Shown here piece by piece: positions 2,891 through 31,481 of a DNA stretch of 64,000 bases (the stretch's first letter is position 1; each line of letters begins with the position of its first letter). Made by a program: the position numbers and the translations under genes. The notes beneath the pieces were generated by a model that was given only the letters and a program-made list of their open reading frames with translations, searched no databases and was not told the DNA's origin. Source of the stretch: Acididesulfobacillus acetoxydans (GTDB lineage: Bacteria > Bacillota > Desulfitobacteriia > Desulfitobacteriales > Desulfitobacteriaceae); NCBI RefSeq assembly GCF_902729405.1, contig NZ_LR746496.1:62001-126000 (forward strand), read 5' to 3'.

Positions 2891-4297
2891 CTAGCGTTTG
2901 AGCAATTTCGCCCCCGCAATTCCGGGATTGGTCATTTCCAGCGGGTGGAGAATGATGTTCAACTCCTCCTCCGTGAGAACCCCTTTTTCCAGAACTATTT
3001 CCCGCACGGGGCGCCCGCTGTTGATCGCCTCCTTGGCTATGGCCGAAGCGACCTCATATCCGACATGAGGATTGATCGCCGTAATCACGCCGACACTGTT
3101 TTCCACCATCTGCGCACAGCGTTCTCCGTTCGCTGTGATCCCCACGACACAGCGCTCCCGGAAGACCCGAACCACATTGCGCAAAATGTCCAAAGACTGC
3201 AGGAGATTGAAAACGATCACCGGTTCCATGACGTTCAGTTCCAGCTGTCCCGCCCCGCAGGCCAAAGACACGGTCAAATCGTTCCCCTGCACCTGAAAAG
3301 CCACTTGGTTGACCACCTCGGGGATCACCGGGTTGACTTTCCCGGGCATGATGGACGACCCCGGTTGCTGCGGCGGCAGGTTGATCTCCTTGAGACCTGC
3401 CCTCGGCCCGGAGGCCATGAGCCGGAGGTCATTGGCTACCTTCGACAAATCCACCGCCAGAGTCTTCAGGGAACCGGAAACCTCCAAAAAAGCATCCGTG
3501 TTCTGGGTGGCATCCACCAGATTTTCCGCCCGCCGTAAGGGCAGACCGCTGATTTCCCCGAGGATATCGGTCACGCGCGCGATATAGGCCGGGTCGGCGT
3601 TCAGCCCGGTTCCTACCGCCGTCGCGCCCATATTGACCACTTCCAAGGAAGTGACAGCGTTTTCCAGGCGTTTCCTGTCCCGTCCAATCATCCGGGCATA
3701 GGCGGAAAACTCCTGGCCCAAGCGGATGGGCACCGCATCCTGCAAATGCGTCCGCCCCATCTTGAGAACCCCGTCAAATTCCTCCGCTTTCCTCTCGAAA
3801 GCCTGCCGCAGCTCGGACAACCCGGAGAGCAAGGCCTGACTGACATTGAGACAGGCGATGCGGACAGCGGTGGGAAAGACATCATTGGTACTCTGCCCCA
3901 TGTTGACGTGGGAATTGGGATGAACTCTGGCATAATCCCCCTTTTCCCCCCCGAGAATTTCAATCGCGCGGTTCGCGATCACCTCATTGGTATTCATGTT
4001 CATCGACGTGCCGGCCCCTCCCTGGATCACGTCGACAACAAAAGACTCATGCAAACGGCCGGAGGCGATTTCCTCGGCCGCTTGCACAATGGCCTCACCG
4101 ATCGTCTTGTTTAAAGATCCGGTCTCCATATTGGCCCGTGCGGCGGCTGCCTTGACCAAAGCCAGACCACGGATGAGTTCCTCATGAGGCCGGTACCCCG
4201 TAATCGGAAAATTATCAACCGCCCGCAGCGTCTGAATCCCATAATAAACCTCATCGGGCACCTCGCGGGAGCCCAAGAAATCCTTTTCCTGGCGCAT
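2891..4297 (-). CDS. aspA: Aspartate ammonia-lyase
   Basis: 468-residue member of the fumarase/aspartase superfamily, which deaminates L-aspartate reversibly to fumarate and ammonia. The catalytic-loop signature GSSIMPGKVNPV is followed by IPEVVNQVAFQVQGND, which is aspartase-like; class II fumarases have a different continuation. The segment TSMNMNTNEVIANRA and the HPNSHVNMGQSTND substrate loop are also present. The ATG at 4297 is chosen over an open frame upstream because GAGAGG precedes it and a consensus promoter lies 70-100 bases upstream. It probably starts its own transcript. Fumarase is the main alternative. Confidence 0.93.
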   Translation of the reverse strand: MRQEKDFLGSREVPDEVYYGIQTLRAVDNFPITGYRPHEELIRGLALVKAAAARANMETGSLNKTIGEAIVQAAEEIASGRLHESFVVDVIQGGAGTSMNMNTNEVIANRAIEILGGEKGDYARVHPNSHVNMGQSTNDVFPTAVRIACLNVSQALLSGLSELRQAFERKAEEFDGVLKMGRTHLQDAVPIRLGQEFSAYARMIGRDRKRLENAVTSLEVVNMGATAVGTGLNADPAYIARVTDILGEISGLPLRRAENLVDATQNTDAFLEVSGSLKTLAVDLSKVANDLRLMASGPRAGLKEINLPPQQPGSSIMPGKVNPVIPEVVNQVAFQVQGNDLTVSLACGAGQLELNVMEPVIVFNLLQSLDILRNVVRVFRERCVVGITANGERCAQMVENSVGVITAINPHVGYEVASAIAKEAINSGRPVREIVLEKGVLTEEELNIILHPLEMTNPGIAGAKLLKR

Positions 4298-27660: not shown

Positions 27661-28329
27661 TCAGGGGAAGGCAGGCCGGCAGATCGCCAATTCCTCCTGC
27701 CGGCCCCGGTTGATCCGGATGACCTGATCCCCCAAAAACTCCGCCTCCCGCAAGTCGTGCGTGACCAGAATAAAGGGAATCTGCCATTCAAGCTGCAACC
27801 GGCGCAGTTCCCGTTGCAGGGCACTCCGTGTCTCCGGATCCAGCGCCGAAAGGGGCTCATCCAAGAGCAGCAGTTCGGGGGCCGTCATCAAAGCCCGGGC
27901 TAAGGCCACCCTCTGCTTCTCGCCACCCGAAATCTGACCCGGGTACCTGTTCTTGAGATGCTCGATGCCAAGCATCCGGAGGACTTCGGCCAGGGAAAGG
28001 CGCTTAGCGCGCCGGTCATCACCCTTGGGCTTACCGTAAAGCACATTCTTTTCCACCGTCAGATGAGGAAAAAGAGCATAGTCCTGAAACAAATAGCCGA
28101 TGCGGCGCTCGCGCGCAGGGATGTTTTTGGCCTCCCGCGAGGAAAAGACAAGTCTCCCCCCGATTCGGATCTCGCCCCAGGAAGGTTTTTGCAAGCCGGC
28201 GACACACTGCAGCAAAGTGGTTTTTCCGGCCCCGGACGGACCGACCACAGCCAAGATGCCCTCAGTCAGAGCGATATTGATTTCTAACTCAAAGCCGGGC
28301 AGTTCCTTGCCGAACTTCGCCTCAATCAT
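27661..28329 (-). CDS. modC: Molybdate ABC transporter ATP-binding protein
   Basis: 222-residue ATPase with Walker A GPSGAGKTTLL, signature ISGGEKQRVALARAL, Walker B LLLLDEPLSALD and switch VTHD. It lacks the C-terminal Mop/TOBE domain of E. coli ModC, a common short form. It powers molybdate or tungstate uptake with ModB and ModA. GGAGGGG precedes the ATG by seven bases. It is the third gene of modABC, separated from modB by a repeat array. Confidence 0.93.
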   Translation of the reverse strand: MIEAKFGKELPGFELEINIALTEGILAVVGPSGAGKTTLLQCVAGLQKPSWGEIRIGGRLVFSSREAKNIPARERRIGYLFQDYALFPHLTVEKNVLYGKPKGDDRRAKRLSLAEVLRMLGIEHLKNRYPGQISGGEKQRVALARALMTAPELLLLDEPLSALDPETRSALQRELRRLQLEWQIPFILVTHDLREAEFLGDQVIRINRGRQEELAICRPAFP

Positions 28330-28343
28330 CGCACAACCCCTCC

Positions 28344-28470
28344 GTCATCGGGTAGTCCCCTCGCCCTCGCACAGCCCTCTCGTCATCGGACCGCTCTCCC
28401 ATCATCGGATAGTCCCCCTCGTCATCGGATAGTCCCCTCGCCCTCGCACAGCCCTCTCGTCATCGGACAG
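28344..28470. repeat. 77-bp direct repeat between modB and modC
   Basis: A roughly 47-base block beginning GTCATCGG(G/A)TAGTCCCC occurs at 28344 and again at 28421 with almost no difference. Between them the smaller unit TCATCGGA repeats twice more. One copy of the unit supplies the modB stop codon. It fills the modB-modC junction. Confidence 0.85.
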
Positions 28471-29149
28471 CCCCTCCGTTTCCTCCCCTTTTGCCCTTTT
28501 TGCGCCAGAGGTTGAGAGCGTAAATGACCAGGAAACTGAACACCGTCATGATCAGAACCAGGATGTTTGCCTGCTTGCCCTCGCCGGCATAAACATCAAA
28601 GAAAATGGCCAGGGGCATAGTTTGGGTCTTGCCCGGTATATTTCCGGCTATCATCAGAGTGGCCCCAAACTCCCCGAGGGAGCGGGCGAAGGCGAGGACC
28701 AGCCCCGCGATAAAACCGTTCCAGGCTAAGGGCAGCGTCACCGTGAAAAAGATTCTTAGCTCCCCCGCCCCCAACGTGCGGGCCGCTTTTTCCAAATTGG
28801 GGTCCACACTTTCCAGCGCCGCTTTAAGAGATTGGTACATGAGGGGGAAAGAAACGACCGCCGAAGCGATGACCGCGCCGGAAAGGGTAAAGACGACCTG
28901 ATAGTGAAAGAAGTGCTCGAGAAACATACCCGGCCAACCGTTCTTGCCGAAAAGATAGAGCAACATAAAGCCAACGACGGAAGGCGGGAGCACTAGGGGC
29001 AAGGTCAACGCCGACTCCGCCAATCCCTTGCCCCAAAACTCGTATTTAGCCATCAGGGCCGCAATGGGCAGACAGCCGATCACGACCAAAACCACCGCGG
29101 CCACGGCGACTTTTAAGGAGAGAATAACCGGAACATAATCAAATTGCAT
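28460..29149 (-). CDS. modB: Molybdate ABC transporter permease
   Basis: 229-residue inner-membrane permease with five to six helices. The cytoplasmic EAA coupling loop reads AARTLGAGELRIFFTVTLPL, and GEFGATLMIAGNIPGKTQTM is typical of ModB. It begins 22 bases after the modA stop. Its last codons merge with the repeat array. A tungstate or sulfate permease is possible, but the ModA-type partner supports molybdate/tungstate. Confidence 0.94.
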   Translation of the reverse strand: MQFDYVPVILSLKVAVAAVVLVVIGCLPIAALMAKYEFWGKGLAESALTLPLVLPPSVVGFMLLYLFGKNGWPGMFLEHFFHYQVVFTLSGAVIASAVVSFPLMYQSLKAALESVDPNLEKAARTLGAGELRIFFTVTLPLAWNGFIAGLVLAFARSLGEFGATLMIAGNIPGKTQTMPLAIFFDVYAGEGKQANILVLIMTVFSFLVIYALNLWRKKGKRGGNGGAVR

Positions 29150-29171: not shown

Positions 29172-29996
29172 TTATTTCATCGTCTTGAAACCGTACTTGG
29201 CAAAAATCTGCTGTCCCTGCGGGCTCTCCAGGAATTTTAAGAAGTCTTCGGCATCGCGTTTGTCTTTGGAACCTGCGACGACAGCCGCCGGATAGACGAT
29301 CGGCCGGTGTGCACTGTCGGGAACAACCGCCGCAACCTTGACTTGGGAAGAACTCTGGGCGTCGGATTGGTACACAAACCCCGCATCCACACTTCCCATC
29401 TCAACATAGGTGAGCACCTGGGTGACATCTTTCGCCAGCACCAGCTTTTGCTCCTGCTGCAGCGTGTTCCAAAGCTTCAAGCTCTTCAGGGACTCTTCGG
29501 CATACTTTCCCGCCGGCACGGACTGAGGCGTGCCGATGCCAATCTTCCTCACCCCGGGCTTCGTCAAATCCTGGACCGAAGTCACATTTTTATTATCCTT
29601 ACCGGTGATTAAAACTAAGACATTACTTAACAAATTAACTTTTGTCTGCTTGACCACCAAGTTTTTCTTGACCAGCGCATCCATCTGCGCTTTGCCGGCC
29701 GAAATGAACAGGTCGGCGGGGGCCCCTTGTTCGATTTGCTGCTCCAGCGGACCCGAAGCGCCAAAATTAAAGGTCAGCCGAACATCGGGGTGGGTTTTTA
29801 CGTAAACCTTCTGAATCTCAGTTAAGGAATTCTGTAAACTGGCGGCAGCAGAGATGATTAAGGCCCTTGAACCGGGCTGCGATCCGCCCTTGCCCGAATT
29901 TGTCCCCCCTCCGGCACTGCAGCCCGCCAGCAATAGCACCACCGACAAAAGCACCGCGAGTGAGTTGAGGAGCGCCCATCCCAATCTTTTCCGCAT
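29172..29996 (-). CDS. modA: Molybdate-binding lipoprotein
   Basis: About 274 residues with a lipoprotein signal (basic MRKR, hydrophobic stretch, lipobox LLAGC). The binding-protein fold has AAASLQNSLTEI, FNFGASGPLEQQIEQGAPAD and DAGFVYQSDA, typical of ModA/WtpA-type oxyanion receptors. The mature protein is tethered outside the membrane and feeds ModBC. Starts at 29996 (AAGGGG, seven bases) or 30014 (GGGGG, seven bases) are equally good. A leader of about 470 bases with a terminator precedes it. Confidence 0.93.
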   Translation of the reverse strand: MRKRLGWALLNSLAVLLSVVLLLAGCSAGGGTNSGKGGSQPGSRALIISAAASLQNSLTEIQKVYVKTHPDVRLTFNFGASGPLEQQIEQGAPADLFISAGKAQMDALVKKNLVVKQTKVNLLSNVLVLITGKDNKNVTSVQDLTKPGVRKIGIGTPQSVPAGKYAEESLKSLKLWNTLQQEQKLVLAKDVTQVLTYVEMGSVDAGFVYQSDAQSSSQVKVAAVVPDSAHRPIVYPAAVVAGSKDKRDAEDFLKFLESPQGQQIFAKYGFKTMK

Positions 29997-30154
29997 TCTA
30001 TTACCCCTTTGCATTCTCTTACCCCCGTTTTCAATAAAGTAACATCCGGAACAAAATTCCTCGCGCATACTCGCTCATAGCACCGTTTCAGTTCCCGCCC
30101 CCCAGGGCCCGAAAATTTCAGGAAGACGGGCTGGACTGACTATAAGCGGCTCAA

Positions 30155-30191
30155 CCAAAACTAAAACAGCTCCACCCAAAACCGGTGGAGC
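30155..30191 (-). terminator. Terminator hairpin in the modA leader
   Basis: Stem GCTCCACC/GGTGGAGC with a 7-base loop, followed on the minus strand by TGTTTTAGTTTT. No minus-strand gene ends nearby, so it lies within the modA leader and may be an attenuator. A GGTGGG at 30219-30224 could pair with the 5' arm as an antiterminator. Confidence 0.7.
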
Positions 30192-30485
30192 CCGCACGCA
30201 ATTAAACGCCTGACAGCCTGCCCACCTCCTTTTCCAAAAGTGAAGGCATACCCGTTTCCGGATATACCCCGAGGGCTCGAAGCCCTGGCCAGAAGCCGTC
30301 GATTACTCATTAGGCTTATCTGGCTCGGAGAGCGGATAACATTTCTTTTGATGCCAAATGATCGGCTAATGGTTCACATCGGAGGTAAACCGTCTCTCTC
30401 GTTAACTCAAAGCCGCCCAACGGCCCTTGGCTGAACGAGTGCCTTTCTCCCGCAAACGTGAACTCACATAAACTAACTGCAAGCC

Positions 30486-30507
30486 CATTATACGATATGT
30501 TATAATG
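30486..30507. promoter_or_regulatory. Palindromic operator in the mod divergent promoter region
   Basis: A 22-bp near-palindrome with arms CATTATA and TATAATG; 18 of 22 positions are symmetric. It overlaps the -10 boxes of both divergent promoters and resembles ModE-type sites (TATA half-sites about 8 bases apart). Confidence 0.7.
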
Positions 30508-30515
30508 GTTGACAA
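30487..30515 (-). promoter_or_regulatory. Promoter of modABC
   Basis: -35 TTGTCA (30510-30515), 17 bases, -10 TATAAT (30487-30492), reading toward modA. Transcription would start near 30480. Confidence 0.7.
30501..30506 (+). promoter_or_regulatory. Extended -10 promoter of the regulator gene
   Basis: TGTTATAAT is an extended -10 box 27 bases before the regulator ATG. The -35 region is weak. Confidence 0.55.
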
Positions 30516-30533: not shown

Positions 30534-31481
30534 ATGGCCGAAGATGTTTCCTACACACCGGAAGAGGTGGCCAAGATCCTTAAAATCTCCAAGTTCACGG
30601 TCTACGAGCTCATAAAACGCGGTCAGTTAGTCGCCTACCACATAGGGCGTAAGGTCCGGGTGGAAGCCGCCGACCTGGAAGCCTACAAAAAGAAAGCCAA
30701 GGGTGTGGTTGTTCACGCTCCCTTTTCGTCTTCTTCTCCGGGCGGAGAAAATCGCAACCGCCCTTTTCCCGAAAGTGCGGGCCTGGTCATCTGCGGCCAA
30801 GACGTTATTCTGGATATTCTGACCCGTCACCTGGAAAAGAGACTTCCCCACCTCTCATTCCTGCGCCAATACATCGGCAGTATCGACGGGTTGACGGCTC
30901 TCTACCGGGGACAAGCGAACGCGGTGACAGCCCATCTTTGGGACAGTGACACCGATGAATACAATATCCCCTATGTGCGCCATATGCTGCCGGGGCACCG
31001 GGCATTGGTCATCAATCTGGTCTACCGGACGGAGGGTTTTTACGTTGCCGGGGGCAACCCGCAAAACATTCTTACCTGGCAGGACTTGACCCGCCCCGGT
31101 GTGCGTTTTGTCAACCGGGAGCGGGGTTCGGGAGCGAGAGTACTCCTGGACGGAAAGCTGAAGGTTCTGGCAATTGACCGTCGGCAAATCCGCGGCTACG
31201 GGGACGAGGAGATGAGCCACCTCGCGGTGGCAAGCCGGGTGGCCCGGGGCGAGGCTGATGCCGGCTTGGGCATTGAAAAAGCAGCCCTGCAGGTCAGCGG
31301 GCTTGACTTTGTACCCTTGCAGAAAGAGCGCTACGATCTTATCATCTTGCAGGAGGATCTTGACAAACCGCCTTTCCAGGCCCTCCTGTCGATCTTGAAC
31401 TCCCCCGCTTTCCAAAATGAAGTACGGGGTATTGGCGGCTATGACGTGAGCCGCATGGGTGAGATCATAAAAGAGGTCTAG
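30534..31481 (+). CDS. Helix-turn-helix regulator with molybdate-type substrate-binding domain
   Basis: 315 residues. The first 60 form an excisionase/MerR-like helix-turn-helix (YTPEEVAKILKISKFTVYEL, RKVRVEAADLEAYKKK). After a short linker, residues about 80-310 resemble the PBP-like domain (PF12727) related to ModA-type oxyanion receptors, with TRPGVRFVNRERGSGARVLLD and ARGEADAGLGIEKAAL. It is transcribed divergently from modABC across a shared palindrome. It probably senses molybdate, tungstate or a molybdopterin-related ligand and controls mod. The ligand is inferred from context. It is not a classical ModE, which has a winged helix and Mop domains. Confidence 0.85.
   Translation: MAEDVSYTPEEVAKILKISKFTVYELIKRGQLVAYHIGRKVRVEAADLEAYKKKAKGVVVHAPFSSSSPGGENRNRPFPESAGLVICGQDVILDILTRHLEKRLPHLSFLRQYIGSIDGLTALYRGQANAVTAHLWDSDTDEYNIPYVRHMLPGHRALVINLVYRTEGFYVAGGNPQNILTWQDLTRPGVRFVNRERGSGARVLLDGKLKVLAIDRRQIRGYGDEEMSHLAVASRVARGEADAGLGIEKAALQVSGLDFVPLQKERYDLIILQEDLDKPPFQALLSILNSPAFQNEVRGIGGYDVSRMGEIIKEV

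Follow-up and report, generated by a model that had tools for sequence, protein, structure and literature searches.

The promoter region shared by modABC and a divergently oriented regulator gene of Acididesulfobacillus acetoxydans, located in the analyzed window (the whole stretch of 64,000 nucleotides), contains an array of three 10-bp direct repeats at the mod start, which is proposed as the operator of the transport operon. Judging from the sequence, the array is probably bound head-to-tail by a molybdenum/tungsten-sensing repressor of the TaoR type, and a Moco riboswitch with a terminator would provide a further level of control in the modA leader.

Regulator Gene and Divergent Promoters

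The regulator gene (30534–31481, plus strand) was characterized by profile matches, a structure model and the literature. Its product contains an N-terminal helix-turn-helix (HTH) of the excisionase type, HTH_17 (PF12728, 1.2e-14; TIGR01764, excise, 1.2e-13), and a C-terminal PBP_like domain (PF12727, 2.7e-75, residues 98–288); the similarity to SBP_bac_11 (ModA-type) is weaker than that to PF12727. The initial annotation, which described a fusion of an excisionase-type HTH with a ModA-like receptor domain, encoded divergently from modABC, is confirmed by these matches. The structure model, obtained from 12 orthologues, has a mean pLDDT of 79.5, and its Foldseek matches are LysR effector domains, among the top ones, and phosphate/sulfate-binding proteins. 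A PDB sequence search returned no useful relative. Despite the LysR-like effector fold, HTH_1 (PF00126) was not found in the regulator, HTH_17 being the only HTH present.

No TOBE match, corresponding to the TOBE/Mop sensor of ModE, was detected in the regulator by the domain search, and the N-terminal domain of ModE (TIGR00637) has no match in the A. acetoxydans genome and none above the cut-off in 46 genomes. The different HTH, the absence of TOBE and the absence of ModE agree with the earlier statement that the regulator is not built like ModE. The same design had also been considered unusual, but it is already known: regulators combining HTH and PBP-like domains are treated as the TaoR type in PMC11980592, and TaoR itself (Rajeev et al. 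2019, Environ Microbiol, doi 10.1111/1462-2920.14500, cited in PMC11980592 and PMC10102598) is linked to molybdate/tungstate metabolism. The regulator belongs to this described type, not to ModE.

The genome of A. acetoxydans contains one HTH-PBP regulator and one MoeA-PBP-like fusion. Among the named relatives of the regulator, the nearest is found in Peptococcaceae bacterium CEB3 (92% identity), and many of the next ones belong to Desulfosporosinus. Orthologues, mostly with 65–92% identity, are encoded divergently from modABC in about 40 relatives, i.e., the association with molybdenum/tungsten transport or enzymes that marks TaoR genes is present here in the form of modABC. Because of this conserved divergent synteny and the lack of ModE matches above the cut-off in the 46 genomes, the regulator very probably controls modABC, as far as gene order and gene content can indicate.

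The modABC promoter (30487–30515, minus strand; 11 of 12 matches) is represented by the -35 box TTGTCA (30515–30510), a 17-bp spacer and the -10 box TATAAT (30492–30487), and is conserved in relatives with a spacer of 17–18 bp. The promoter of the regulator gene has an extended -10 box (TGn-TATAAT, TGTTATAAT; 30498–30506, plus strand) and no good -35 box. Since the -10 box of the regulator gene is contained entirely in the 17-bp spacer between the mod -35 and -10 boxes, the overlap of the two promoters is almost complete. Among 22 non-redundant loci with both -10 boxes 8 bp apart, the T and the G of the extended -10 box are present in 18 and 20, respectively.

Direct-Repeat Array at the mod Start

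The array (30453–30482, plus strand), recognized from unit scores and conservation, is composed of CAAACGTGAA (30453–30462), CTCACATAAA (30463–30472) and the degenerate CTAACTGCAA (30473–30482). It is located on the modA side of the mod -10 box, just downstream of it, and occupies approximately positions -2 to +28 relative to the predicted mod start. Units 1 and 2 have scores of 7.5 and 8.1 bits, and their registers relative to the mod -10 box, 34 and 24 bp, are the canonical ones; the degenerate unit 3 (register 14) scores -0.4 bits. When the unit model was trained without the window's own locus, units 1 and 2 formed the sole same-strand pair in the 64 kb with a spacing of 10 bp and both units above 5 bits; apart from this leave-one-out test, the loci scored by the model were also its training set. 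The period score of the window array, calculated from its own sequence, is only z = 1.7.

The repeat consensus is C[TA]AACA[TA]AA[AC]. In 41 intergenic regions, 43 AACATAA-like pairs were found at exactly 10 bp against 0.65 expected, 22 at 20 bp (0.6 expected) and 13 at 30 bp (0.5 expected), with a sub-period of 5 bp among such pairs (28 against 2.8). In a period scan requiring no motif, period 10 was enriched with z > 2 in 36 of the 71 non-redundant regulator upstream regions (loci thinned at 80% identity, the related genomes among them still not being independent); the other periods, apart from the harmonics 15 and 20, reached z > 2 in 0–7 regions, and control windows from the same loci showed period 10 at z > 2 in 9 of 328 cases. 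Measured from the beginning of the mod -10 box, the units occupy fixed registers of 22/24, 32/34 and 42/44 bp in a single orientation, and these registers contain 91 units on the regulator strand against 24.6 expected, the other strand containing 6 against 4. Direct repeats about one helical turn apart, as characteristic of excisionases/RDFs, are thus present, with a period of exactly 10.

A scan of 1.17 Mb of loci for the composite element, in which an array at 22–24 bp is combined with a mod-type promoter, gave >60 matches (including overlapping copies of the same locus), nearly all at mod; in reversed sequence the element had 0 matches. Pattern scans of the A. acetoxydans genome for a wider regulon, which are insensitive, returned no more matches than the reversed-pattern control apart from the site itself, and the three-unit pattern, likewise insensitive, had no match in this genome, the own site included. 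At L082:2955 (the same site as L025:955), a mod-type array and promoter precede an operon of genes for Peripla_BP_2, ABC ATPase and XdhC, which is likely a further member of the molybdenum/tungsten regulon. At L196:2856 (a minus match of the scan), an array and promoter precede a gene for a CWB2 cell-wall-binding protein (3176–3799, plus strand), adjoining modA; this gene is a possible, unexpected target. Repeats near moeA in L178 were not counted, being inside a simple-repeat stretch.

A variant clade of paralogous regulators is represented mostly by Syntrophomonadaceae, Pelotomaculum and Desulfoscipio. Its recognition region is SKGTVYELLKRGEIPSYRVGKKIRISQADLQ, against SKFTVYELIKRGxLxAYHIGRKVRVExADLE in the main type, and the unit words are CTAACATAAA in the main type and GGTACTAAAT in the syntrophomonad paralogue. 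The variant repeat unit, G[AG]TACTAA, again has a period of 10 (z > 2 in 10 of 14), with 13 pairs at 10 bp and 4 at 20 bp, and the spacing between its copies and the divergent -10 box is approximately that of the main-type units. The joint change of helix and unit, which is a correlation, would fit a direct contact between the protein and the repeat. The occurrence of G[AG]TACTAA at modA in syntrophomonad genomes, predicted from this relationship, was not observed; modA is accompanied there by a second regulator and AACATAA-like repeats. In L217–L219, L221, L223 and L224, the genomes of which carry the variant-unit regulator, a second HTH-type regulator divergent from modA was found, and several of these loci contain AACATAA-like repeats.

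Near-Palindrome and Separated Promoters

The initial annotation assigned the role of the operator to a 22-bp near-palindrome covering the -10 boxes of modABC and of the divergent gene. This element, CATTATACGATATGTTATAATG (30486–30507, without strand assignment), is present with the symmetry given for it, 18 of 22 positions, and TATAAT occurs in each half, one per strand: the left half corresponds to the -10 box of modABC, and the right half to the extended -10 box of the regulator gene, the two boxes facing each other with a gap of 8 bp. The symmetry, the coverage of both -10 boxes and the intact state of the same block in many Desulfosporosinus loci speak for an operator of a dimeric regulator, repressing both modABC and itself. 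However, such palindromes are frequent by chance: the window contains 12 equally good 22-mers, and when the 465-bp intergenic region was shuffled 2000 times, one was present in 118 of the shuffled sequences (6%). Facing -10 boxes and the flanking C/G account for 14 of the 18 symmetric positions.

The symmetry is also not maintained beyond the -10 boxes. Among the 22 loci with the 8-bp gap, the outer dyad pairs, i.e., the -10 boxes required for selection of these loci, are mostly kept, but retention of the four inner pairs drops to 6, 0, 13 and 11 loci, and the G of the extended -10 box has a facing C in none of the 22. In Sporomusa-type loci the -10 boxes are separated by 10 bp and form no dyad; overall, the palindrome is absent at many orthologous loci.

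Six Desulfosporosinus genomes, in which modA and the regulator gene are located apart from each other, represent a natural experiment. The -10 box, the -35 box and the array are kept at all six modA promoters, with the register unchanged except at one promoter (22 bp, not 24), while the right half of the palindrome is lost at all six. At the six separated regulator genes, the left half of the palindrome is degraded or lost; four of their promoters contain no array units, and two contain a single one. On the basis of these six genomes, the array is taken as an element of mod, and the two halves of the palindrome as elements of their respective promoters. The dyad disappears at both places once the mod and regulator promoters part, and it is the 10-bp repeat array that stays with modABC instead. 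The palindrome is a by-product of two -10 boxes facing across 8 bp and was rejected as the operator, its binding by a dimeric regulator being very unlikely. The related proposal that the regulator also represses itself finds no support at regulator promoters separated from mod; autoregulation may occur at loci in which the regulator promoter, too, adjoins the array, and is not conserved.

Leader, Proposed Control and Known Systems

The operon is encoded on the minus strand. The gene modA (29172–30068, given from the ORF start; TIGR01256, 223 bits, cut-off 62.5) encodes a protein with a signal peptide, suggesting a start codon later than the ORF start; modB (28460–29149) matches TIGR02141 with 245 bits (cut-off 182.6); modC (27661–28329) encodes a short form lacking TOBE, shared with several Desulfosporosinus loci and matching TIGR02142 over positions 1–210 of 353 only. 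The modA leader contains a full-length match to the molybdenum/tungsten cofactor (Moco) riboswitch RF01055 (30210–30342, minus strand; 75.7 bits, above the Rfam gathering score of 36). Between the riboswitch and modA, a terminator scan and folding revealed an intrinsic-terminator-like hairpin (30168–30192, minus strand), which is probably the expression platform of the riboswitch; 2 terminator-like sites were found against 1.5 expected in shuffles. In a sample of 40 loci, the riboswitch was also found in L003, L012, L020, L028, L030, L045, L124 and L125, was truncated at the edge of L197 and was missing from most loci, so the controls by the riboswitch and by the regulator are separable.

A second, inverted array (TTATGTTAG) is located deeper in the mod leader in many Desulfosporosinus loci (L006, L199, L200 and L202 among them) and is absent from the window; it may be involved in looping, form a hairpin or be a by-product. 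If the repeats acted in RNA, they would form a regulatory hairpin with such inverted copies, and the facing arrays of some Desulfosporosinus-like loci (L005, L006, L017) do fold strongly, with z from -2.1 to -3.6. Over the 28 leaders folded, however, the mean z is -0.47, with only 4 below -2, and the leader of the window, missing the inverted array, has z = -1.05; a hairpin of facing repeats was rejected as not general, and action of the repeats in RNA is most improbable.

For the array as a DNA operator, the following mode of control is proposed. The shared region of overlapping divergent promoters would serve modABC and a one-component regulator of the TaoR type, with the repeats at 30453–30482 as the operator. 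Monomers of the regulator would bind head-to-tail, one per helical turn and on one face of the DNA, similar to lambda Xis and 186 Apl. With the PBP-like domain filled with molybdate (or tungstate), they would form a short cooperative filament, covering the modABC start and the early transcribed region and blocking transcription, and transcripts that escape would be checked again by the Moco riboswitch, controlling the terminator.

A repressor is preferred in this scheme because the array extends over the mod start and into the transcribed region, which is a repressor position. The opposite sign, in which the array is an activator site, located either at approximately -31 to -60 relative to the promoter of the regulator gene or across the mod start, or in which the apo form binds, would be consistent with the extended -10 box and the lack of a good -35 box in the regulator promoter, and the TaoR abstract is said to report both activation and repression. 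Activation is nevertheless unlikely, given the position of the array and its loss from most of the regulator promoters that are separated from mod.

With the array, a candidate operator that can be tested takes the place of a misleading one, for molybdenum/tungsten regulators that form a widespread group in anaerobic Bacillota. It is a tentative, though serious, possibility that TaoR-type regulators throughout Bacillota recognize a code of helically phased direct repeats by means of an excisionase-like filament, the repeat having drifted together with the helix at a fixed 10-bp phase, and that some of them are stacked on a Moco riboswitch. If so, the mod operon of some species would have two stacked sensors, for the metal oxyanion and for the finished cofactor, so that one operon would read both metal supply and cofactor, and the DNA-binding mode of phage excisionases would appear to have been recruited for ligand-dependent metabolic control. 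The composite motif, with no matches in the reversed control, could be used to find regulon members, such as the operon of the substrate-binding protein, ABC ATPase and XdhC.

Among known systems, the TaoR family has the same HTH and PBP-like domains and the same link to molybdenum/tungsten; TaoR is described for a tungsten aldehyde oxidoreductase, whereas the branch studied here is located at modABC. Excisionase-type proteins bind a single site weakly, their binding to direct repeats spaced by one turn of the helix being cooperative, and Apl of phage 186, the sites of which lie between two promoters, represses both (PMC7498355). Phage excisionases/RDFs (lambda Xis, 186 Apl) share the HTH type with the regulator and have direct repeats 10–11 bp apart, but the regulator, unlike them, is fused to a ligand-binding domain and has a chromosomal, metabolic role. 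With ModE it would share the expected function, molybdate-dependent control of modABC, and differs in the HTH and in the absence of the TOBE sensor. LysR-type regulators, which gave top Foldseek matches, likewise combine an HTH with an effector domain of the periplasmic-binding type; in contrast to them, the regulator has HTH_17 instead of HTH_1, and its candidate operator is represented by 10-bp direct repeats. The Moco riboswitch is an ordinary member of RF01055, combined here with a TaoR-type regulator.
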